From the NCBI GenBank assembly GCA_017469925.1, contig JAFUFK010000001.1:40229-104228 (forward strand): a stretch of 64,000 nt of DNA. Direction: 5' to 3'. How positions within the stretch are numbered: position 1 is the first letter of the stretch; every line of letters starts with the position of its first letter. The position numbers and the translations under genes are program-made. The DNA is from Bacteroidaceae bacterium. GTDB lineage: Bacteria > Bacteroidota > Bacteroidia > Bacteroidales > Bacteroidaceae. Under the pieces are notes generated by a model. It was not told where the DNA came from, did not search any database, and saw only the letters and a program-made list of their open reading frames with translations. Positions 8,531 through 59,394 of this stretch are shown here, piece by piece.

Positions 8531-9448
8531 CTAACCAATCTCTTCCAGATTGTACGGCGTCTCTTGATAAACGTAATAGTTAAGCCAGTTGGTGAAGAGC
8601 AGGGTGCCGTGGCCGCGCCAGGTGACGTTGGGGCGGCGCGTCGGGTCATTGTCTTGGTAATAATGCTGCGGCTTCTCGATGGGCAGGCCTTTCGAGAGGT
8701 CGCGTTTGAACTCTGTGTCGAGCGTCAGGGGCGAGTATTCGCTGTGGCCCGTGATGAAGAATTCGCGACCACCCCGAGCCATGACCATGCCCACGCCACT
8801 CTCCTCGCTCTCGGCAATCAGCATGAGTTCGGGCCGACGGAGGATATCCTCACGGCGCAGTTCCGTGTGTCGGCTGTGTGGCATGTTGAACTGGTCGTCG
8901 AATCCTCGGAAGATGGGCAGCGTCGGGTCGAGTATCTGCTGCGGGAAGATTCCGAACATCTTCTTCGGCAGCGCATATTTGGGTATGCCGTAGTGGTGGT
9001 AGAGACCAGCCTGTGCCGCCCAGCAGATGTATAGCGTACTGGTGACGTTCGTGCGGCTCCAGTCGAAGATTTCCTGCATCTCGTCCCAGTAGTTCACGTC
9101 CTCATAGTCGAGGTGTTCCAGCGGGGCACCCGTGATGATGAAGCCGTCGAACTTCTCATGCCGCATGACCTCGAAATCGCGGTAGAAGGCCCTCATGTGT
9201 TCCACGGGGGTGTTCTTGCTCGTGTGCGCCTTCACCTTCATCAGGTGAATCTCCAACTGCAACGGCGAGTTGGAGAGGATGCGCACGAGGTCGGTCTCAG
9301 TCGTTATCTTCAGCGGCATCAAGTTCAGTATGGCGATGCGCAGCGGACGTATGTCCTGGTGCCGCGCCCGCTCCGAGCCCATGACGAAGATGTTCTCCGC
9401 CTTCAGCAGTTCAATGGCCGGCAGTCTGTCAGGTAGGGTTAGTGGCAT
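8531..9448 (-). CDS. metA: Homoserine O-acetyltransferase (MetA family)
   Basis: A 305-residue enzyme of methionine synthesis that acylates the homoserine hydroxyl. The start MPLTLPDRLPAIELLK is the family's; upstream codons in the open frame belong to the end of the neighbouring gene. Cys142 (nucleophile, YICWAAQ), His235 and Glu237 (TGHSEY) fall at the positions of the E. coli enzyme. Residue 111 is Glu (GAPLE) where E. coli has Gly. In this family Glu111 has been linked to acetyl-CoA rather than succinyl-CoA use, so an acetyltransferase is predicted. The start is only 7 bp after the DUF1016 gene stop, so no promoter of its own is visible. Its first 48 bp are repeated at 10609-10656. Confidence 0.95.
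   Translation of the reverse strand: MPLTLPDRLPAIELLKAENIFVMGSERARHQDIRPLRIAILNLMPLKITTETDLVRILSNSPLQLEIHLMKVKAHTSKNTPVEHMRAFYRDFEVMRHEKFDGFIITGAPLEHLDYEDVNYWDEMQEIFDWSRTNVTSTLYICWAAQAGLYHHYGIPKYALPKKMFGIFPQQILDPTLPIFRGFDDQFNMPHSRHTELRREDILRRPELMLIAESEESGVGMVMARGGREFFITGHSEYSPLTLDTEFKRDLSKGLPIEKPQHYYQDNDPTRRPNVTWRGHGTLLFTNWLNYYVYQETPYNLEEIG
9401..9448 (-). repeat. metA 5'-end direct repeat, copy 1
   Basis: The first 16 codons of metA. Copy 2 is at 10609-10656. The two differ at a few positions and give MPLTLPDRLPAIELLK versus MTLTLPDRLPVIELLK. Identity stops sharply after codon 16. The pair flanks the DUF1016 gene. Confidence 0.9.
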
Positions 9449-9455
9449 AATAAAA

Positions 9456-10472
9456 TTATATTGATTCCAACATTTGCTTGAATTCTTCTTCGGTGGGCAG
9501 ATATAACTTGTATCTTGATGCGAATATCTGCTTGCCTTCACTCAATACAGAGTATTTCACGATGGCTTCACTCTTCTGTGAGCAGAGGATGATGCCAAGT
9601 GTTGGATTGTCATCTTTATTTCTGTAGAGCGCATCGAACATGCGGATATAACTGTCCATTTGTCCTACGTCTTCATGGGTCAGTTTACCTAGTTTAAGGT
9701 CAATCAGCACATGGCATTTCAAGATACTATGATAGAAAACCAAATCTACATAGAAATTCTCATCGTCATACTGCATTCGTTTCTGGCGCGCCACGAAGCA
9801 GAAACCACGCCCGAGTTCCAATAAGAACTGCTGCAAGTGGTCAATAAGTGCCTGTTCAATGTCGCTCTCGTGCAGTGCAGGGTAATCCTTCAGGTCAAGG
9901 AACTCCAGCACAAACGGGTCGTGGATGAACTGAGAAGGGGCGACATCTTTTAGTTTTTCCTTTGCTTCTGCTACCACCGACTCTTTTTCTCTGCTGGCAA
10001 GAAGACGCTCATAGTAGAGCGTGGATATCTGCCGATCCATTTGTCGTGTGCTCCAGGCGCTATTTGCTGCCTCGTCCATGTACCACAGGCGAGTCTTCTC
10101 ATCCTCTATGCTAATCAGACGACGATAGTGCGACCAAGTTAATTCGTGACGCAGTGTGTCACGAATTGGGAAACATCGGTAAAAGAGGCGCATGTAACGC
10201 AGATTACTTTCGTCAAATCCCTTTCCAAACTCATGGGATAGCCTTGCCGCCAGTTCCCTTAATATACCTTTGCCATAATCCGCCCTCGCTTCTCCGTGTT
10301 GCTCATGCTCAACTATTGTCTGACCTATCAGCCAGTAACTTTCGACCATAGCAAAATTTACGGCACTATACGCCCGTTGCCGTGCATTGGCCAAAATACT
10401 TCTGATGTCGGCATATAGATGTTCTACGCTTTGCAGAACTGGCTCTTTCTTGTCATTAGAATCTTTGTTCAT
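9456..10472 (-). CDS. DUF1016 / PDDEXK nuclease domain protein (YhcG-like)
   Basis: A 338-residue protein. The N-terminal DUF1016_N helical domain covers about residues 15-160 (VESYWLIGQTIVEHEQHGEA...YGKGILRELAARLS). The PD-(D/E)xK nuclease domain covers about 180-330, with NFYVDLVFYH followed by HVLIDLKLG supplying the Asp and the xxK of the active site. The family occurs sporadically in bacterial genomes, often near restriction systems; a DNA-cleaving role is inferred from the fold. The gene lies between metA and a partial copy of metA's first 48 bp, which points to insertion. Its stop is 7 bp before metA, so it may now drive metA by read-through. Confidence 0.88.
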   Translation of the reverse strand: MNKDSNDKKEPVLQSVEHLYADIRSILANARQRAYSAVNFAMVESYWLIGQTIVEHEQHGEARADYGKGILRELAARLSHEFGKGFDESNLRYMRLFYRCFPIRDTLRHELTWSHYRRLISIEDEKTRLWYMDEAANSAWSTRQMDRQISTLYYERLLASREKESVVAEAKEKLKDVAPSQFIHDPFVLEFLDLKDYPALHESDIEQALIDHLQQFLLELGRGFCFVARQKRMQYDDENFYVDLVFYHSILKCHVLIDLKLGKLTHEDVGQMDSYIRMFDALYRNKDDNPTLGIILCSQKSEAIVKYSVLSEGKQIFASRYKLYLPTEEEFKQMLESI

Positions 10473-10506: not shown

Positions 10507-10656
10507 TCAATCATTCTTTTGCGTTATGCCATCATCGTTTGTCACGACCTCCTGACCTGTCCTCTCCAGTCGCAACTGCTTTATCTCTTTTTCCAGTCGC
10601 TCGAGCACCTTCAGCAATTCAATGACCGGTAGTCTGTCGGGTAGGGTTAGTGTCAT
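10507..10656 (-). CDS. 49-residue ORF: copied metA start fused to a coiled coil
   Basis: ATG at 10656, stop TGA at 10507. Residues 1-16 (MTLTLPDRLPVIELLK) duplicate the MetA N-terminus; residues 17-33 (VLERLEKEIKQLRLERT) form a short charged helix or coiled coil; the remainder is polar. It starts 3 bp after the stop of the upstream nuclease-like gene and lies 34 bp before the DUF1016 gene, so it sits in one transcript. It may be a relic of the former metA start left by an insertion, or a small protein made by fusion. Nothing supports a specific function. Confidence 0.55.
   Translation of the reverse strand: MTLTLPDRLPVIELLKVLERLEKEIKQLRLERTGQEVVTNDDGITQKND
10609..10656 (-). repeat. metA 5'-end direct repeat, copy 2
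   Basis: Near-identical to 9401-9448. It marks the far edge of the DUF1016 cassette and forms the first 16 codons of the 49-residue ORF. Confidence 0.9.
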
Positions 10657-10659
10657 AAA

Positions 10660-51355: not shown

Positions 51356-52447
51356 TTATTTCTTGTAGTTCTTGTCGTAGAAACGTTTCTTGATGACCAC
51401 ACCGGGCTGCAACTTCTTGTGGATGCGCACCTCGACGGGTGTCCCCAACTTCGTATAGTCAATGTCGAGCAAGGCCATGCACACGCTCTTTCCCGTCGAG
51501 ATGCTGTTGTAACCCGTAGTCACGTGTCCGATAACCTTGTCGTCGGCCACCACCTCGTAGCCGTGGCGCGGAATGGCGCGGCCTTCCAGCTCTATGCCCA
51601 CAATCTTGCGCGTGACGCCTTCGGCCTTCTGGCGAGCCACCACCTCCTTGCCGACAAACTCCGGCTTATCCACCTTCACGAACATGCCCAGGCCGGCCTC
51701 GATGGGCGAGAGCTCGTCGGTCAGTTCGTCACCGTACAAGGGCAGTCCCACCTCGAAGCGCAGCGTGTCGCGGCAACCCAGTCCGCAAGGCTTGGCCTCG
51801 CCGCTCTCGATAAGTTTGTCCCACATCCGCTGGATGAGGCCGTGCGAGGCATACACCTCAAAACCGTCCTCGCCCGTGTAACCCGTGCGGCTGATGATGA
51901 TGGTCTCGCCCTCCACGTCCATCTTCTTGAACGTATAGAACACCAGTTCCTGGCAGGGCAGCTGGAGCACATTCTCCACCACCTCCTCGGCCTTCGGGCC
52001 CTGGATGGCCAACTGACCATACAGGTCGCTCTGGTTCTCGGTCACTACGTCGAACGCCTTGGCCTGCTCGCTTATCCAGGCGTAGTCCTTGTCGATGTTC
52101 GCCGCGTTGATGACGAGGAAGAATCTCTCGTCCCCCTCTTTATAGACCAGCAGGTCGTCGATGGTGCCACCGTCCGGGTGCAACATCATGCCATAGAAGA
52201 TTTTGCCCACCGGGGCACCTGCGATGTCGTTCGTAAAGATGTGCTGGACGAAGCGTTCAGCCTCGCGTCCCGTCACCAACACCTCGCCCATGTGGCTCAC
52301 GTCGAACACGCCGCAGGCCGTGCGGACGCTGACGTGCTCGTCTGTGATGTCGGTGTACTGGATGGGCATCTCGAATCCGCCGAAGCTCACCATTTTGGCG
52401 CCCAGCTGGATGTGCCTCTCGTAGAGGCAAGTTCTTTTGTCGCTCAT
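51356..52447 (-). CDS. gcvT: Aminomethyltransferase (glycine cleavage T protein)
   Basis: A 363-residue enzyme that transfers the aminomethyl carbon to tetrahydrofolate and releases ammonia. Motifs: FGGFEMPIQY, ACGVFDVSHMGE, RTGYTGEDGFEVY and CRDTLRFEVGLPLYG. It is the first gene of the gcvTHPAPB-lpdA operon, with promoter TATTTTTG at 52476-52483 and TTTG at 52503-52506. No glycine riboswitch was recognised in the leader of roughly 23 nt; the leader is too short to hold one. Confidence 0.96.
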   Translation of the reverse strand: MSDKRTCLYERHIQLGAKMVSFGGFEMPIQYTDITDEHVSVRTACGVFDVSHMGEVLVTGREAERFVQHIFTNDIAGAPVGKIFYGMMLHPDGGTIDDLLVYKEGDERFFLVINAANIDKDYAWISEQAKAFDVVTENQSDLYGQLAIQGPKAEEVVENVLQLPCQELVFYTFKKMDVEGETIIISRTGYTGEDGFEVYASHGLIQRMWDKLIESGEAKPCGLGCRDTLRFEVGLPLYGDELTDELSPIEAGLGMFVKVDKPEFVGKEVVARQKAEGVTRKIVGIELEGRAIPRHGYEVVADDKVIGHVTTGYNSISTGKSVCMALLDIDYTKLGTPVEVRIHKKLQPGVVIKKRFYDKNYKK

Positions 52448-52506: not shown

Positions 52507-52672
52507 AGAAATGCCCTCCTTTCTTACGAACGTAGGGTGAGATTTTTGTTGGTGTTGTCTTATGTGTGCGCATGCGTATATTATTAATTCTTATTTAGAT
52601 GTATGGTGCCATAAATAATATATTCTTTTTCAAATTCTTGGGTTAAATATATAAGAATTCAAGATAAATGCT

Positions 52673-52680
52673 TATATTTG
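52673..52680 (+). promoter_or_regulatory. Promoter -7 box upstream of the small ORF and XRE gene
   Basis: TATATTTG. The predicted transcript starts near 52686 and would carry the 28-codon ORF before the XRE gene. No clear -33 element. Confidence 0.5.
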
Positions 52681-52711
52681 CAGCGTCTTCCGAGAGAAAC
52701 CGGGAGCAGCG

Positions 52712-52798
52712 ATGGCGTACAGCGTTCGTCCTTACTATCGAAATCGCCAGTTTCAAAGCCAAAGGATGAGTACTGATTATGCACGCTTTGTGTATTGA
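52712..52798 (+). CDS. Possible 28-residue leader ORF
   Basis: ATG preceded by GGGAGCAGCG; product MAYSVRPYYRNRQFQSQRMS and eight more residues. It lies 26 nt after the predicted transcript start in the 496-bp gap between gcvT and the XRE gene. The rest of the gap is AT-rich with no other gene. Translation is unproven. Confidence 0.35.
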   Translation: MAYSVRPYYRNRQFQSQRMSTDYARFVY

Positions 52799-52943
52799 CG
52801 TGTGATGCAGAACGGCTGCATTCAGGTCATATACGGCGTGGGGTAATTGTATTCGATTCATTTTGGCAATGGTGTTTGGCGATACCAGATAGTAGATGAA
52901 TGGAAGGCCCCTCGCTTTTGTGTTCGTAAAAGCCCCCAATCGC

Positions 52944-53285
52944 ATGGAACATAAGGACTATAAAGACATCTACATTGGTCAGCTCATCCAGAAAAAGGTG
53001 GATGAAAGCCAAATGAGTTATACCGAGTTTGCCCGCCAGATTCACGTGGCCCGTACCAGTCTCTATCGCATCTTCGAGAGTAAGAGCATCGACGTAGAGC
53101 GTCTGCTCCTTATCTCCGAGGTCCTTGACTATGATTTTATTCATAAGGTATATATTGGGGGGGAAGAAGAAGCGACAACTGGAACACACCTTTCTCTGCC
53201 TATACACAAGGGACACGTGTATATTGACGATCTACCTCCTGCCATAATCAACTGGCTCCGAGAAGCATTGGACAAGTCACATTGA
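52944..53285 (+). CDS. Small XRE-type helix-turn-helix regulator
   Basis: A 113-residue protein. A Cro/C1-type HTH covers about residues 8-65 (IGQLIQKKVDESQMSYTEFARQIHVARTSLYRIFES, then DVERLLLISEVLDYDF). The remainder (about 75-113) is short and of unknown role. Start MEHKDYKDIY was chosen because it opens the HTH. It sits before three envelope protein genes on the same strand and might regulate them, which is inference from position. Confidence 0.75.
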   Translation: MEHKDYKDIYIGQLIQKKVDESQMSYTEFARQIHVARTSLYRIFESKSIDVERLLLISEVLDYDFIHKVYIGGEEEATTGTHLSLPIHKGHVYIDDLPPAIINWLREALDKSH

Positions 53286-53365
53286 CTCAAAGGGTGTTGC
53301 AAAAAGTGACGATTCCTGTCTTAAAATGTGACGCACCTAATTGTTGTGGGAATATAGATAAATAT

Positions 53366-53373
53366 TAATTTTG
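53366..53373 (+). promoter_or_regulatory. Promoter -7 box for the envelope-protein genes
   Basis: TAATTTTG, 35 bp before the ATG at 53408, with a weak GTTG -33 box 19 bp upstream. Confidence 0.55.
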
Positions 53374-53407
53374 CACAACATTGTATAATACTTAAATATT
53401 ATTTTAG

Positions 53408-53899
53408 ATGAAAAAGATTCTACTTTCGATGACTGCAATGTTATTTGCAGTGAGCAGTTTTGCCCAAAAGACAACAACAACCTATCGTTATGAGGACACT
53501 CAGGCCCGTGCGCTCGATATGGTTGCCAAGGGCTACGTGAAGCCTTTGACCGTAGAGGTGAAGGTGGATGCTACCAAGGGCCGTCAACATTTCTCTTACG
53601 ACATGGCCAAGGATTTCGTAGAAATCGACATGAAGGGCGATGTCTACAACGTACGTTCTTACGGTCTCTTCAAGGCAACGGATGAGGCTAAGTGCGACAT
53701 CATCGTGGCTCCTACGTTTCACCTCTTCACCAACGAGAAGGGTGGTTACACACTGGAGATAGTTGGTTTTGCAGGAAACTTTATCAACTGGCGTACCATG
53801 TCCAACGAAGACCTTCAGTGGATTAACTCTACTCAAGTGCACACTACGGGTGACCGCCAGCAGATTGATGCCGTGTTGAAGCCCACGTCTAACAAGTAA
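53408..53899 (+). CDS. Hypothetical exported protein
   Basis: A 163-residue protein with a signal peptide (MKKILLSMTAMLFAVSSFAQ, cleaved before KTT). The mature part is a mixed alpha/beta domain with no motif I recognise. It is 37 bp upstream of an outer-membrane barrel gene and probably co-transcribed with it. Base composition is more AT-rich than the metabolic genes on either side. No function can be assigned. Confidence 0.6.
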   Translation: MKKILLSMTAMLFAVSSFAQKTTTTYRYEDTQARALDMVAKGYVKPLTVEVKVDATKGRQHFSYDMAKDFVEIDMKGDVYNVRSYGLFKATDEAKCDIIVAPTFHLFTNEKGGYTLEIVGFAGNFINWRTMSNEDLQWINSTQVHTTGDRQQIDAVLKPTSNK

Positions 53900-53936
53900 T
53901 CAACATAATTAACACAAATAACTAAAACTAATTATT

Positions 53937-54752
53937 ATGAAGAATTTCGCATTAGCTCTGCTTGCAATGGCTTTTTCTGCAAGTATCGCTCAGGCACAGA
54001 TTGTTTCGTCTAAAAACAGCCGCATCACGGTAAACAAGGAAGTTGTTGCCCACAACTATGAAAACTACAACCGCATCTCTTTCGGTCTGGCAACTGACAA
54101 GTTGAAAAGCAGTGATGAAAAAGTATTCAACTTCAAAGACTTGGACTTTGATAAGAAGAGCATTACCTTGAAGGGAATTGACCTCAACTATCTGCGTGGT
54201 ATCAGCCTAACCCAGAAGTTCCCTTTGTACTTGGAAGTCGGTGGTCGTCTTACCTACGATACTTACAAGTATGAGGATAGTGACTACGACGAAGGTAGCT
54301 ATTATACTTACAATGAATCCTGGTCAGATCGCCTGAATCTGCTGAGCCTTTCGATTCCCGTAAACGTTACTTATAAATACACTTTCTCCAATGGTTTCTA
54401 TATTGCTCCTTTTGCAGGAATCCATTTCCGTCTGAATCTCTTGGCAAATGATAAGTGGGAATGGGAAGAAACTGAAATTGACCGATATGGTGACGTAGAC
54501 GTGGATAAAGAGGATGGAACAATGAGTTTCTTTAAGGCTGACGACGAAGATGATGATGCTTTCTTTGATGATGGTGTAGATACAGCAAGGCGTTTCCAAT
54601 TTGGTGGGCAAGTTGGTGTAAACCTTGGTTATAAGGCGTTCAATTTTGGCTTTGCTTATTATTTCGACTCTCCCATCTACAAGTATGATGAGCGTGTTGA
54701 CTTCAAAGTTAAGACTGGTGGCGTTTCGCTGACTATTGGCTATAATTTCTAA
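53937..54752 (+). CDS. Outer-membrane beta-barrel protein
   Basis: A 271-residue exported protein: signal peptide (about 1-20, IAQAQ), then alternating amphipathic beta strands with aromatic girdles (YLEVGGRLTYD, YIAPFAGIHFRLNL, FQFGGQVGVNLGYKAFNFG) ending in VSLTIGYNF, a typical final barrel strand with terminal Phe. An acidic loop (EDDDAFFDDG) lies near residue 205. It resembles OmpA/PorT-like eight- or ten-stranded barrels in Bacteroidota; the ligand is unknown. A terminator hairpin follows at 54785. Confidence 0.8.
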   Translation: MKNFALALLAMAFSASIAQAQIVSSKNSRITVNKEVVAHNYENYNRISFGLATDKLKSSDEKVFNFKDLDFDKKSITLKGIDLNYLRGISLTQKFPLYLEVGGRLTYDTYKYEDSDYDEGSYYTYNESWSDRLNLLSLSIPVNVTYKYTFSNGFYIAPFAGIHFRLNLLANDKWEWEETEIDRYGDVDVDKEDGTMSFFKADDEDDDAFFDDGVDTARRFQFGGQVGVNLGYKAFNFGFAYYFDSPIYKYDERVDFKVKTGGVSLTIGYNF

Positions 54753-54784
54753 CAACTGCTAAATACATCATTAATTTCATTTTT

Positions 54785-54826
54785 GGAGGCATGGTCGCAG
54801 TGATGTGATGCGCCTCCTTTCTTTTA
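54785..54826 (+). terminator. Terminator after the barrel gene
   Basis: GGAGGC (54785-54790) pairs with GCCTCC (54812-54817), followed by TTTCTTTTAA. Confidence 0.6.
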
Positions 54827-54852
54827 ATCGGATTTTCTAAAAAGCAAACAAT

Positions 54853-55308
54853 ATGGAAAAGAAATTATTTAAGATTTTTGCCTTCTTGCTGATGGTGGGC
54901 CTGGGTATAGGCTTTGTTGCCTGCAGCGACGATGATGATATTCCCGGCGGCACAGAGAAACAGGCAGCGGCCAGTCTTGCAGGTACATGGTACTGCACAT
55001 TCCAGCAGTGGACGGAAGACGGTGAGACAGAGTCCGAGACTTACGAACCCTCCTCTGAGTATTGCATTGTTTTTGAGTCTGACGGAACAGGTTATATGGT
55101 CAGTGGCGATGATGAACTCTTTGAAATAGGAACTCATGGGTATAAATATTTTGAGTGGTACGTCTATCAGAAGAGTGGCTACAATTGGGTACATACGAGC
55201 GTATATGGTGGTGAGGACTATCGCATAAATAAGTTGACAGCTACTACTTTAACCATGATATGGCGAGACGAAGATTATAGTATCACCTGTACGTTTGAGA
55301 GACAATAG
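54853..55308 (+). CDS. Lipocalin-like lipoprotein
   Basis: A 151-residue lipoprotein (lipobox FVACS at about residue 24, acidic DDDD linker). The body LAGTWYCTFQQWTEDGETES...YCIVFESDGTGYM is the opening of a lipocalin-like beta barrel common in Bacteroidales surface lipoproteins. The acidic residues after the cysteine may act as a surface-export signal. Ligand unknown. It is followed by a 540-bp gap containing a terminator hairpin and the edge of the hipBA cassette. Confidence 0.75.
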   Translation: MEKKLFKIFAFLLMVGLGIGFVACSDDDDIPGGTEKQAAASLAGTWYCTFQQWTEDGETESETYEPSSEYCIVFESDGTGYMVSGDDELFEIGTHGYKYFEWYVYQKSGYNWVHTSVYGGEDYRINKLTATTLTMIWRDEDYSITCTFERQ

Positions 55309-55460
55309 AGTTATCCGATGAGGGGTAGGAGTTGCTCTCCAGTCCCTTTCGGAACTGATGTCCCTGCGAAGATACATTAAGAATAAGTTCGACCTTTGTA
55401 GCAGATGATTCGCGATTCGCAAATCGCGAATAGAGCATGTAAATGTAGGGTGAATGAATT

Positions 55461-55505
55461 GTAAAAAGTTACGGAGAATTTCCACTTTCTCCGTAACTTT
55501 TTACA
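55461..55505. terminator. Strong bidirectional terminator
   Basis: A long stem GTAAAAAGTTACGGAGAA pairing with TTCTCCGTAACTTTTTAC around a short loop, T-rich on both strands. Confidence 0.88.
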
Positions 55506-55560
55506 TATAGATGCTTGTGGAATAAAGAAAAGTTCGTAGTATCGCAAATACTAATTTATG

Positions 55561-55593
55561 CTTGTCTTTGGTCATTCACGCACACGCGCGTTT
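55561..55593. repeat. lplA downstream-region repeat, copy 1 part A
   Basis: CTTGTCTTTGGTCATTCACG onward matches 58341-58375 (just after the lplA stop) apart from one substitution and a 2-bp gap. Confidence 0.88.
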
Positions 55594-55596
55594 GAA

Positions 55597-55662
55597 ACCA
55601 GTGACTGGTTAAACGGAAACCAGTATATGGATGAAAATAGACCAGTGACTGGGTCGTGGAAA
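55597..55662. repeat. Three 22-bp iterons upstream of hipB
   Basis: Units start at 55597, 55619 and 55641, each opening ACCAGT. Unit 1 contains ACCAGTGACTGGT, a perfect 6+1+6 inverted repeat; unit 3 repeats ACCAGTGACTGG. The spacing of two helical turns suits a DNA-binding protein. They lie in a 76-bp insertion (55594-55669) that splits the copied lplA end exactly at the stop codon. Confidence 0.85.
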
Positions 55663-55667
55663 AGTTG

Positions 55668-55766
55668 CTACTCCGTGAGGAGGCTCATGAGGTCGGCCTC
55701 GGAGAGTCCGCGCAGGGAGCGTTCGGGGTGGTGCTCAGCAAAGAATATGCAGGCATATTTCTGCAT
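55668..55766 (-). pseudogene. Fragment of the lplA 3' end
   Basis: 55670-55741 matches 58377-58448 at all but four positions. In the lplA frame it still encodes AEHHPERSLRGLSEADLM and then SLLTE-stop. With nine unrelated residues in front (MQKYACIFF) it forms a 32-codon open frame. It is the far edge of the cassette holding hipB, hipA and the ADP-ribosylglycohydrolase gene. Confidence 0.85.
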
Positions 55767-55780
55767 TCGCTGCTCCAAAA

Positions 55781-55812
55781 TTTGGTATTTTGCTCGCTTA
55801 TTCGTACCTTTG
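55781..55812 (+). promoter_or_regulatory. Promoter for hipBA
   Basis: TTTG (55781-55784), a 20-bp spacer, TACCTTTG (55805-55812): a full consensus match, 38 bp before hipB. The iteron array ends about 120 bp upstream of the -33 box. Confidence 0.8.
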
Positions 55813-55849
55813 CAAATAATAATATATTGGTAGTTTTATTACAAAAGGG

Positions 55850-56185
55850 ATGAATAGTGATAATATATTATCAGTTCTTGACAGTTTCGTATTGGAGAAT
55901 GCTGAAACCATTGCAAGGAAACTGGCAGACGATTTCCGCCATAGGCGAATAGAAAAAAACATGACCCGTGAACAGGTTGCCAAGAAGGCAGACATTGCCG
56001 TGAGTAATGTTATACGGTTTGAGCAAAAGGGACTGATTTCGTTGAGCAACTTGATAGCACTGGCTATGTCTATGGGCTATACGGCCGAGGTGGCCAACGT
56101 CTTTGCCCAACCGAAGTATTCCACAATGGAGGAACTGACACAAATCCGCAAGAATGCAGGCAAAAAGAAAGCGTACGGAAAATGA
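55850..56185 (+). CDS. hipB: HipB-like antitoxin, XRE helix-turn-helix
   Basis: A 111-residue protein. N-terminal helix (1-30), then an XRE HTH at about residues 35-90 (RRIEKNMTREQVAKKADIAVSNVIRFEQKG...LIALAMSMGY) and a short basic tail (KNAGKKKAYGK). It overlaps hipA by 4 bp (ATGA), the standard coupling of antitoxin and toxin. HipB-type proteins bind operator DNA and restrain the kinase; the 22-bp iterons upstream are candidate operators. Confidence 0.88.
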   Translation: MNSDNILSVLDSFVLENAETIARKLADDFRHRRIEKNMTREQVAKKADIAVSNVIRFEQKGLISLSNLIALAMSMGYTAEVANVFAQPKYSTMEELTQIRKNAGKKKAYGK

Positions 56186-57306
56186 AAAAGATAGAAAGAC
56201 TTACCATCGCTTATCGAGAAAAGAAGGTGGGGACACTCTCTCTTACCCCCGACAACCGGTTGTGCGCCTTTGAGTATGACAGAGGTTGGCTGAACGAGGG
56301 TTTCAGTATTTCGCCACTGGAACTTCCGCTTCGGGCAGGTGTCTATGTGGCCAAGCCTGAGCCGTTTCGTGGTGCGTTCGGCATTTTTGAGGATAGTTTG
56401 CCCGATGGTTACGGACGCTACCTACTTCACAAGGCATTGTTGCGCGAAGGAGTCAATGACAGCAACCTGTCGGCACTTGACAGGTTGAGTCTGGTGGGCA
56501 GTGGAGGCATGGGGGCACTGACATATCAGCCAGAGACATCCCTTACGAAGGGAGAAGATATTCGCGATTTTGACATGTTGCAGGAGAAAGCCCTGGAGGT
56601 TCTGAGAGAACAGCAGGACACGGACGCGGGCTTACTGCTTTATAATAGCGGGAACAGTGGTGGGGCACGTCCAAAGGCCATATTCTCTGATGCCGAAGGG
56701 CACTGGCTTGTAAAGTTCCGTCACATCTATGACCCGCAGGACATTGGAAAACAAGAGTATCACTATAATGAGGTGGCAAGACGTTGCGGAATTACTGTGC
56801 CTGATTTCAAACTGATAAACGGCAGATATTTTACAACCCGACGTTTCGATCTTACTCCTCTTGGAGAGCGACTGCATACGGCAACGGCTGGCGGGTTGCT
56901 TTGCGTATCGCTATCGACACCTGTACTCGACTATGGCAATCTGTTGGCACTGACGGGCTATCTCACGCAGGATGTGGATGCAGTAGAGGAGATGTATCGC
57001 CGGATGGTGTTCAACTATCTGACGGATAACAAGGATGACCATTGCAAGAACTTCAGTTTTTACGTGGAGGATGACAATCAAGGACACTTCGGGTGGCATT
57101 TGGCACCGGCATACGACCTCACGCTATGTAGTGAAGGATACAATGGAGAACATGCCACGTCTGTGAACGGGACGGGGCATCCTACACTTCGTGACATGAT
57201 TGCCGTGGGAACGAAAATAAATATGAAGGAACGGCGTTGTCTGGAACTTTATGAAGAAGTGAAGACCGGTTGTGGCGACCTGTTGCTTAATCGGATAGAG
57301 GAATAG
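56182..57306 (+). CDS. hipA: HipA-like serine/threonine kinase toxin
   Basis: A 374-residue kinase. HipA N-terminal subdomain (about 8-100) and HipA_C kinase domain (about 150-320). Substrate/P-loop segment SGNSGGARPKAIF with Lys165; catalytic DNKDDHCKNFSF (about 282-293); metal-binding PAYDL (Asp312). All active-site residues appear intact, so it is likely active. E. coli HipA phosphorylates glutamyl-tRNA synthetase and causes growth arrest; the target here is unknown. Shorter than the 440-residue E. coli protein. Confidence 0.9.
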   Translation: MKKIERLTIAYREKKVGTLSLTPDNRLCAFEYDRGWLNEGFSISPLELPLRAGVYVAKPEPFRGAFGIFEDSLPDGYGRYLLHKALLREGVNDSNLSALDRLSLVGSGGMGALTYQPETSLTKGEDIRDFDMLQEKALEVLREQQDTDAGLLLYNSGNSGGARPKAIFSDAEGHWLVKFRHIYDPQDIGKQEYHYNEVARRCGITVPDFKLINGRYFTTRRFDLTPLGERLHTATAGGLLCVSLSTPVLDYGNLLALTGYLTQDVDAVEEMYRRMVFNYLTDNKDDHCKNFSFYVEDDNQGHFGWHLAPAYDLTLCSEGYNGEHATSVNGTGHPTLRDMIAVGTKINMKERRCLELYEEVKTGCGDLLLNRIEE

Positions 57307-57357
57307 CCGTACTGATTTCTCATTTCATACTTTGCAACAATATAATAAATAAAGAAC

Positions 57358-58197
57358 ATGAAAAACCTGGAAATGTTAGGAGCCTTGGCTGGTGACATTA
57401 TTGGTTCCGTATATGAGTTTAGAAATTCGAAGTCTGTGGACTTCGAACTGTTTACTGACGCTTCCACTTTCACCGACGACAGTGTGATGACGCTGGCCGT
57501 GTCCCGATGGTTGATGGAAGATGAGGCTCACACGCTCCAGGCTCTGGTGCGCTGTATGCAGGAACTGGGGAACGTGCATCCTGATGCCGGGTATGGGGGA
57601 AGTTTTATGCTATGGCTGGCCAGCGAAGAGCCAAAACCCTACGATAGTTGGGGCAACGGCGCAGGTATGAGGGTGAGTCCCGTGGGGCTGTATGCAAAGA
57701 CCATAGATGAGGCTCTTGCCCTTGCTGCCATCTCGGCCTCGGTCAGCCACAATCATCCTGAAGGCATCAAGGGAGCGCAGGCCATTGCATCGTGTGTGTT
57801 CCTTTGCAAACGAGGAAAGAGCAAGGCAGAGATAAAGGAGTACGTGAAACGAATGTTCGGGTATGACCTCGACCGAAAGATTGAAGATATACGGAAGTGG
57901 TATGAGTTCGATGTGTCTTGCCAGGGCAGTGTGCCAGAGGCCATCATCGCATTCTTGGAGGGGAATTCCTTCGAGGAGGTCATTCGTCTTGCTGTTTCCC
58001 TTGGCGGTGATTCTGATACCATCGCCTGTATGGCAGGTGCCATTGCTTCCTGTTGCTATGAGATTCCTGCTCCTATAGCCCAGAAGTGCAACGAACTTCT
58101 GACGGACGACTTGCGTGAGATAAAGGACACCTTCATCACCTTCGTAGATAAAAGAGAACGTTTTTATCAGCGGATAGAAAGTTGGATAGGGTATTGA
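57358..58197 (+). CDS. ADP-ribosylglycohydrolase (DraG family)
   Basis: A 279-residue enzyme expected to remove ADP-ribose from proteins or nucleic acid, or to cleave related ADP-ribosyl compounds. The two metal-binding motifs are present: FTDDSVMT near residue 39 and LGGDSDTIA near residue 219, together with GALAGDIIGSVYE at the start. It follows hipA by 51 bp; a partial promoter (TACTTTGC near 57329) may exist in the gap. Its place in the cassette suggests a link to HipA or to an ADP-ribosylating toxin, which is inference. It ends 177 bp before the lplA stop, convergent. Confidence 0.9.
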   Translation: MKNLEMLGALAGDIIGSVYEFRNSKSVDFELFTDASTFTDDSVMTLAVSRWLMEDEAHTLQALVRCMQELGNVHPDAGYGGSFMLWLASEEPKPYDSWGNGAGMRVSPVGLYAKTIDEALALAAISASVSHNHPEGIKGAQAIASCVFLCKRGKSKAEIKEYVKRMFGYDLDRKIEDIRKWYEFDVSCQGSVPEAIIAFLEGNSFEEVIRLAVSLGGDSDTIACMAGAIASCCYEIPAPIAQKCNELLTDDLREIKDTFITFVDKRERFYQRIESWIGY

Positions 58198-58340
58198 GAG
58201 AATTCTGTTAGGACCAAACCACTAAAACTTTTCCTTGACGTAGAAAACATCCCTCCGGCTGTGCCGGGACTGCGTTTCGGGTAGGGCCATGAGGTAACTG
58301 TCGGCATGTCGCGACGCACCGAGGGGGATTGTGTCTATTG

Positions 58341-58448
58341 CTTGTCTTTGGCCATTCACGCACACATGCGCGTTTTACTCTGTGAGGACGCTCATGAGGT
58401 CGGCCTCGGAGAGTCCGCGCAAGGAGCGTTCGGGGTGGTGCTCGGCAA
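58341..58448. repeat. lplA 3'-end repeat, copy 2 (intact)
   Basis: The last 72 bp of lplA (58377-58448) plus 35 bp downstream. Copy 1 at 55561-55741 is the same segment split by a 76-bp insertion. The two copies flank the hipBA/ADP-ribosylglycohydrolase cassette. The remainder of the 58198-58374 gap holds nothing else recognisable. Confidence 0.9.
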
Positions 58449-59394
58449 TGGCCTGGCGGAGGCGTTCGGGCGTGAAGGGTAGGCCGAGGAGGGCGTCGGA
58501 GAAGTTTTGCTGGGCCTGGCCGAGGTCGAAGAAATCGCCACGAAGTTCTACCGAACTGATGAGGCTGCCCTGGAGACGGAAGTGGAGTTCTACGAGTCCG
58601 CATCCGGGGATTCTGGCCGAACGGACGACGTCGGCCCGGGCCGAGGAGCCATAGAAGTACTGAGGGTCGTAGTAGCGTTGTTCCAGCGTCTCGATGTGGC
58701 GGACGTCGTCGGCCGTGAGTGTGACCGTGCGGTCGGTGAGCAGGAGGCGAAGCCTGTGGCGAAGTTCATCGACACCGAAGGGTAGGTAGTCCTTGAGCAG
58801 CCCGATGCGGCTGCGTACGCTTCGGACGCCTTTCTGCTCCAACTTGCTGACGTCGGGCCGGAGGGCACCCTCCATCAGTCGGGGGTTGGTGTCGTAGAGC
58901 ATGGTGCCGTGGGCAATGCAGCAGTTGACCTTTTGGTAGAAGGCGTTGCCGCAAACCTTAAAGGACCCTCCGTCCTCGAGTACGATGTCGTTGCGGCCTG
59001 AGACGATGGCCGGTGCCCCGAGTTGGCGCAGGGCCTGGGCTACGGCTTCGGCATACTCTTGGAAGAGTGGTTCTACGGGGACGCTCTCGGTGATGAGGCT
59101 GGTCATGATGTTGCGCTCGTCGGCAAAGATGGCTCCGCCACCCGAACGGCGGCGTATGACGTCGATGCCCTCGCGACGGCAGAAGTCGAGGTCAACCTCC
59201 TGGTGGGCTACTTGGTTGCGGCCCATGACTACGGTGGGCCGGAGTTGCCAGGTGAAGAAGTAACTGCCCGTGGGCAGGGCTTCGGCCACATACTCTTCGG
59301 CGGCCAGATAGAAAGCCGCCCTCCGGCCCTCTGTCTCGGGAGGGAGTTCCACGAAACAGGCGGGGAAGTGCGGCTTGTGCTGAGACGTTTCCAT
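58375..59394 (-). CDS. lplA: Lipoate-protein ligase A family protein
   Basis: A 339-residue ligase that attaches lipoate to carrier proteins. The signature RRRSGGGAIFADERNIM is at about residue 80-96, with GRNDIVLEDGGSFKVCGNAF following and a C-terminal accessory domain (about 245-339). Substrates would include GcvH (Lys64) encoded at 50823. Promoter: TTTG (59447-59450), 20 bp, TACTTTTG (59419-59426). Its 3' end is duplicated at 55670-55741. Confidence 0.93.
   Translation of the reverse strand: METSQHKPHFPACFVELPPETEGRRAAFYLAAEEYVAEALPTGSYFFTWQLRPTVVMGRNQVAHQEVDLDFCRREGIDVIRRRSGGGAIFADERNIMTSLITESVPVEPLFQEYAEAVAQALRQLGAPAIVSGRNDIVLEDGGSFKVCGNAFYQKVNCCIAHGTMLYDTNPRLMEGALRPDVSKLEQKGVRSVRSRIGLLKDYLPFGVDELRHRLRLLLTDRTVTLTADDVRHIETLEQRYYDPQYFYGSSARADVVRSARIPGCGLVELHFRLQGSLISSVELRGDFFDLGQAQQNFSDALLGLPFTPERLRQAIAEHHPERSLRGLSEADLMSVLTE

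Follow-up and report, generated by a model that had tools for sequence, protein, structure and literature searches.

A hipBA–ADP-ribosylglycohydrolase cassette flanked by a displaced copy of the lplA 3′ end in a Bacteroidaceae genome

Between the core genes of bacterial chromosomes there are often accessory genes without any visible mobile element. In the minimal mobile elements of Neisseria, one pair of conserved genes can enclose different gene sets, none of them with mobility genes, and a duplicated gene end beside the insert is, to our knowledge, not one of their features. Here we analysed a 64,000-nt stretch of Bacteroidaceae bacterium GCA_017469925.1 (contig JAFUFK010000001.1, 40,229–104,228; hereafter the window, whose positions serve as coordinates), in which a cassette of hipB, hipA and an ADP-ribosylglycohydrolase-family gene lies between an intact lplA gene and a displaced copy of the lplA 3′ end, which we term a scar. 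At lacZ of Escherichia coli, linear DNA that was re-closed and integrated by a single crossover leaves a duplicated gene end of 109–950 bp around the insert and involves no integrase, according to the available part of PMC3240628; that system was a laboratory plasmid under selection, whereas the lplA locus is natural and its copies are about 5% apart. In the stacked immunity genes of the Vibrio type VI secretion system, as described in the accessible text of PMC5361080, incoming modules are inserted beside old ones and leave remnants, for instance an effector 3′ end that was displaced; those arrays are tied to one kind of locus, whereas the scars described here occur at unrelated genes.

The 3′ end of lplA and 36 bp downstream of it (58339–58448) are repeated at 55559–55593 and 55669–55741, on the far side of the cassette. 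The sequence-only reading that preceded this analysis had placed such a repeat around the cassette, and comparison of the window with itself bore it out, giving direct repeats of 73 nt at 94.5% identity (55669–55741 vs 58376–58448; E 2e-25) and of 32 nt at 91% (55559–55590 vs 58339–58370), the latter extending to 55559–55593 vs 58339–58375 with a 2-nt gap. The left copy, which consists of sequence downstream of lplA (55559–55593) and the fragment of the lplA 3′ end (55669–55741, minus strand), is split by 75 bp (55594–55668). The right copy lacks these 75 bp and runs continuously from the downstream sequence (58339–58374) into intact lplA (58375–59394, minus strand; Pfam LplA-B_cat and Lip_prot_lig_C), in which 58376–58448 is the counterpart of the scar fragment. 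The final 8 nt of the 73-nt match, 55734–55741 (CTCAGCAA; lplA counterpart CTCGGCAA), also form the 5′ end of the promoter element of hipB and may just as well be assigned to it, so that the lplA tail proper is 65 bp and the joint carries a 7/8 overlap, CTC(A/G)GCAA. For random 8-mers of the window the probability of such an overlap is 0.0006, uncorrected for the choice of joint, and the overlap was testable at the lplA joint only. Over the 66 bp of lplA tail compared, the copies show three differences. Among 139 genus-sample genomes, including its own, the lplA tail alone matched only its own genome (E ≤ 1e-3).

To place the cassette in time, we compared the interval between lplA and gcvT (51356–52447, minus strand; NCBIfam GcvT), the ancestral downstream neighbour of lplA, across relatives represented by one genome per species, mostly as incomplete assemblies. 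LplA had a match in 103 other genus-sample genomes, and wide stretches were taken from 16 of them, mostly the best-scoring. In 12 of these loci gcvT was located, 24–111 bp after lplA in nine and after 3.1–4.0 kb in three (G127, G133 and G043); in the remaining four it was not found within 3.8–10 kb, two of these stretches reaching a contig end. Eleven further loci came from named genomes (records of Prevotellaceae, Bacteroidaceae or Bacteroidales metagenome assemblies), five of which were already in the genus sample; the six added ones, with gcvT 35–307 bp after lplA, brought the set to 22. Altogether, gcvT was contiguous with lplA in 15 of the 22 loci (24–307 bp), behind another insert in three and not in reach in four; in the window, 5.9 kb separates the two genes. 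Because lplA directly precedes gcvT, cassette-free, in 15/22 loci, we take the cassette to be derived. An ancestral or conserved cassette, which would have spoken against the sequence-only reading, was rejected, as none of the 22 relatives carries it between lplA and gcvT. Judged by eye from ORF (open reading frame) lists, the inserts of G127, G133 and G043 appear to contain sugar-modification genes in one case, a TonB-dependent receptor plus one more gene in another and a glycoside hydrolase in the third. The search for other cassettes at lplA that had been suggested thus found three inserts, none of which has a repeat of the lplA end. The gene sets in the window and in these three loci are all unlike one another; this variety of gene sets is shared with the Neisseria elements and is seen here between species, not strains.

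These observations support an insertion that kept lplA whole and left a copy of its tail behind. Tentatively, and with confidence falling just short of even, we explain the cassette by incoming DNA that became circular through a short overlap and then recombined once with the homologous end of lplA. Besides the cassette, such foreign DNA would have brought into the cell about 100 bp matching the lplA end (65–66 bp of the gene and 36 bp downstream); its ends would have closed where lplA tail and hipB promoter element overlap, at CTC(A/G)GCAA, and the resulting circle would have integrated by one homologous crossover within the lplA end. One crossover of this kind yields the far flank, then a copy of the gene end, the insert, the second copy and the intact gene, in just the order observed. 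Circle and crossover are inferred from this layout, as are the DNA's source and the succession of events; the 7/8 overlap at the lplA/hipB joint is what the closing of ends could leave, and the lplA repeat is about in the size range of the E. coli duplications (109–950 bp). In that system, the available part of PMC3240628 reports a duplication product by polymerase chain reaction in 56 of 60 clones, 14 of which were sequenced (109–950 bp), and its authors concluded that a circle lacking part of the homology, most likely after partial degradation and re-closing, had integrated by a single crossover. A literature search on transformation in Prevotella surfaced nothing on point.

Like scars are present at other genes. 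We took a census of the window and 40 further stretches of 20 kb from the same genome (864 kb in all), limited to repeats of 40–600 bp with at least 80% identity and 300–6000 bp apart. The census returned 22 direct pairs and no inverted pair, an excess of direct over inverted repeats that is more than chance. A whole ORF is enclosed by 14 of the 22, and three were read as gene-end scars (lplA, metA and serB); such counts depend on reading the repeat pairs by judgement. Eleven pairs were set aside in this reading: six at L260, those at L259 (low complexity) and L265, two at L296 and one paralog pair. At L296, a pair of 129 bp with 90% identity around a 650-residue ORF is a possible scar, the neighbouring genes being alike over 35 residues only. 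At L260 (7655–12878, G000:C20), several intergenic stretches, up to 368 bp long and 91–93% identical, are repeated around accessory-looking genes.

The metA scar lies in the window and repeats 51 bp at the 5′ end of metA, around the start codon (9400–9450 = 10608–10658, 90%); it encloses a YhcG/DUF1016 nuclease-like gene (9456–10472). At a serB-like gene (L302, 9808–12660, G000:C19), 47 of the last 49 bp are repeated at 98% identity around an insert of Bro-N, extracytoplasmic function (ECF) sigma and 411-residue ORFs, and the copied 3′ end is in frame with the 411-residue ORF, which ends the insert on its far side. Outside the census, loci around the sites of two sequence elements described below, a palindromic array and a hairpin, yielded three more cases: a flippase-like gene (labelled by eye; no Pfam match), whose last 63 bp plus 6 reappear (90%) behind a metallophosphatase gene; the region upstream of gyrB, copies of which, in pieces (93–98%), flank an AlbA_2 gene; and locus L235 of another species. 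In 20 stretches (400 kb) of three relatives, the census found eight direct pairs and one inverted pair, the latter joining two similar coding ends. Three of these pairs enclose a whole ORF; one (L269) looks like a common dispersed repeat and was set aside, and two, both in G103, were read as scars, one of a tetratricopeptide repeat (TPR) gene end around trkA–trkH and one of part of an outer membrane protein (OMP)-like gene around a 133-residue ORF. With similar scars elsewhere in this genome and in a relative, the scars look like traces of ordinary gene uptake and not of a new mobile element. Gene-end scars would then be a readable record of the arrival of accessory genes, and their counts across strains could show a common uptake route and whether particular DNA elements favour it. 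Literature searches on gene-end duplication hotspots, and on gene fragments with insertion and Bacteroides, surfaced nothing on point.

We next asked whether relatives retain the sites in an uninterrupted state. From 126 other genomes with a metA match and 75 with a serB match, many of the latter weak, we took 29 loci each with flanks of about 1.5 kb; neither the metA insert nor the serB insert was present in any of its 29 loci. The gene to the right of the serB scar lies 0–104 bp after serB in 5/29 loci and after 1.35 kb in a sixth, and in these relatives the serB locus looks like an empty site. The neighbours of metA mostly differ among relatives. Concerning the origin of the copies, 12 of the 22 differences pooled over six scars fall at third codon positions (p 0.03), an excess that hints at two copies coming from diverged working alleles.

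Several points weigh against integration of a re-closed circle by a single crossover. For efficient homologous recombination, about 100 bp is a short stretch. Between the two lplA-end copies there are about 5% differences, besides the 75-bp array; given this divergence the event is not fresh, and the copies may stem from two alleles or have drifted since. These genomes, one per species, showed no circle, no donor and no empty site at strain level. Support is weakened by the four of 22 lplA loci with gcvT out of reach and by metA, which gives no empty site because its far neighbour is also missing in all 29 relatives' loci. The scar fragments are not closer than the intact copies to the genes of other species, and the tests of origin pull apart: the relatives closer to the fragment versus the intact copy numbered 0 vs 24 for metA (n = 29), 5 vs 2 for lplA (n = 11) and 16 vs 11 for serB (n = 29, on one difference). 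The 5.9 kb also hold an element resembling a miniature inverted-repeat transposable element (MITE). Finally, E. coli K-12 showed no scar in 320 kb; it gives no contrast, because only about 1.3 would be expected there at the rate seen here.

The same final layout would arise by homology-facilitated illegitimate recombination, in which a linear fragment recombines homologously through lplA sequence at one of its ends and is joined illegitimately inside the resident lplA tail. One-sided homology and a short overlap at the other joint, here the 7/8 match CTC(A/G)GCAA, are common to this process and the lplA locus, and the accessible part of PMC3240628 describes micro-homology of 3–10 bp at most such joints. 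Processes akin to it are proposed for the Vibrio immunity-gene arrays in the available text of PMC5361080, and for small variable segments in that of PMC2884548. However, in what PMC3240628 reports in that part, such recombination generally shows a deletion of about insert size and no duplication, whereas at lplA, which is whole, resident DNA appears to be duplicated; its rate in E. coli was very low, and the joint lacked homology in three of the authors' own four clones. We regard this route as rather unlikely.

Alternatively, the lplA end could have been duplicated in tandem, or copied by a template switch during replication; deletion and divergence would have followed, and the cassette would have arrived between the copies. 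The sample of this genome holds direct repeats only, as such a history would have it, and because both lplA-end copies hold sequence resembling the leader of the array, the array could predate the duplication. This history, however, needs extra steps, and the inner end of the scar coincides with the start of the cassette promoter element. On balance it seems unlikely.

As a further alternative, a genomic island could have entered the lplA 3′ end by site-specific integration and then decayed, with an integrase that was lost or that acts in trans. What held of the sequence-only reading is the insertion at a gene end, with a derived cassette, a whole lplA and a 3′-end fragment at the far side; a site-specific island that targets gene ends was not supported. 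As for integrase-borne islands in gene 3′ ends, direct repeats flank the insert at a gene end and one of them completes the gene, and the lplA–gcvT gap holds inserts in three of 22 relatives' loci besides the window. However, the cassette contains no integrase, the other lplA–gcvT inserts share no attachment repeat with it, and the scars at other, unrelated genes have other sequences, one of them at a 5′ end (metA) and another in the gyrB upstream region. The inner end of the lplA repeat is, moreover, an overlap with the hipB promoter element. Since the scars do not share a repeat and no integrase turned up, we consider such an island improbable.

We also examined whether a sequence element at the joints could be responsible. 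The 75 bp that split the left copy (55594–55668, plus strand) are a degenerate copy of a dispersed palindromic array, AACCAGTSACTGGTT, with a 22-bp period and a GC-rich leader. Such arrays are found at the window copy and 17 other loci of the genome, intergenic at the loci examined; the genome has 53 exact AACCAGTSACTGGTT sites and the other 138 genus-sample genomes have none. The array lies inside or adjoining two scars. It was rejected as a cause, since a scar is present at only 2 of the 18 array loci, a count that leaves out the L218 repeat pair (9786–9831 = 10507–10552) around a 202-residue ORF. A literature search on extragenic palindromes in Bacteroidetes surfaced nothing on point.

The hipB upstream region (55734–55814, plus strand), which forms the inner joint of the scar, comprises a hairpin element followed by a promoter-like sequence. 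The hairpin varies in sequence while its arms still appear complementary and its flanks are constant; its folding z-scores are weak (mean −1.1 over 22). The combined element occurs in the window, at L224 and L210 and at 18 loci of other species, also before gyrB and, judged by eye, rpsO. The promoter-like sequence (55778–55814) was rejected as a cassette end per se, the element being genus-wide. A search with the hairpin pattern (≤3 mismatches) returned exactly four sites in the genome and none for the reversed pattern, and all four lie at three structures of an insert with a duplicated flank, at lplA, the flippase-like gene and gyrB (both copies). Pattern searches found neither hairpin nor array at the joints of the metA and serB scars. 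Twenty other-species loci were taken, 18 with a copy of the hairpin region and 19 with a match to the promoter core. A flanking duplication of the right kind was present in 1/18 of these hairpin loci (L235, a terminator), and the hairpin was rejected as a general cause; tandem promoter repeats, L245 (promoter-like repeats 3 kb apart) and L247 were left out of this count. The four sites in this genome would suit a dedicated, undescribed process, guided by the hairpin and inserting gene blocks at gene ends in this lineage, which we rate as very improbable. By eye, the L247 repeats resemble a CRISPR array beside a Cas2-like ORF.

The three cassette genes, encoded opposite to lplA, have G+C contents of 0.44–0.51, compared with 0.63 for lplA and 0.56 for the window. 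The first is hipB (55850–56185, plus strand), an antitoxin-like gene with a helix-turn-helix (HTH) domain (Pfam HTH_3), and the second is hipA (56182–57306, plus strand), encoding a HipA-family kinase-like protein (Pfam Couple_hipA and HipA_C; match to E. coli HipA). With both HipA domains, N- and C-terminal, and an upstream HTH partner present, hipBA is a predicted toxin–antitoxin-like pair. The D-x-x-x-x-N stretch and YD of the window's HipA align with those of E. coli HipA, residues that we take to be catalytic there. As in HipBA type II toxin–antitoxin systems, the HTH gene overlaps the HipA-family gene; what differs in the window is the ADP-ribosylglycohydrolase-family gene that follows hipA (57358–58197, plus strand). 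Its product matched ADP_ribosyl_GH (PF03747) at 131 bits against a gathering score of 26.2, and its best solved-structure relatives are ARH3 enzymes. The content given by the sequence-only reading was thus recovered by Pfam, with its assignment to the DraG family holding at superfamily level only (DraG model TIGR02662, 52.9 bits, far under the cut-off of 337.05). It had also seen no integrase or transposase in the cassette, and Pfam and NCBIfam agreed for the three genes.

A travelling unit of hipBA and the glycohydrolase gene was rejected, as relatives of each, among the matches listed, lie at separate places in the genus loci examined. Phage and plasmid records were searched with HipA as the query. 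HipA relatives were found in 646 plasmid records, including 16 from Bacteroides and 12 from Parabacteroides, with up to 43% identity among the eight matches listed and one further record in the 60–80% band; four phage records matched, the best at 41%. Carriage of the cassette by a plasmid may therefore be possible. Viral contigs contained no HipA relative and five relatives of the glycohydrolase (41–48%). A literature search found no paper pairing hipBA with an ADP-ribosylglycohydrolase.

The 5.9-kb gap consists of at least two parts, a first block beside gcvT (52546–55558) and then the scar with the cassette. The first block, which the sequence-only reading had not counted, contains four ORFs, with an HTH domain (52896–53285), of 163 residues (53408–53899), OMP-like (53937–54752) and of 151 residues (54853–55308), and has a G+C content of 0.39–0.48. 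Pfam found no mobility genes among the seven ORFs scanned, the four of this block and the three of the cassette, which are the larger ORFs. The MITE-like element, dispersed and with inverted ends, lies at about 52715–52935, beside gcvT, and has matches in 19 other genus-sample genomes. A terminator-like inverted repeat, perfect over 19 bp and with a loop of 8 bp, lies at 55460–55505; the single Rfam match, at 55460–55507, is at chance level. A stretch similar to this repeat lies about 4 kb from a glycohydrolase gene in G095, and a partial relative of the first block is present elsewhere in G110.

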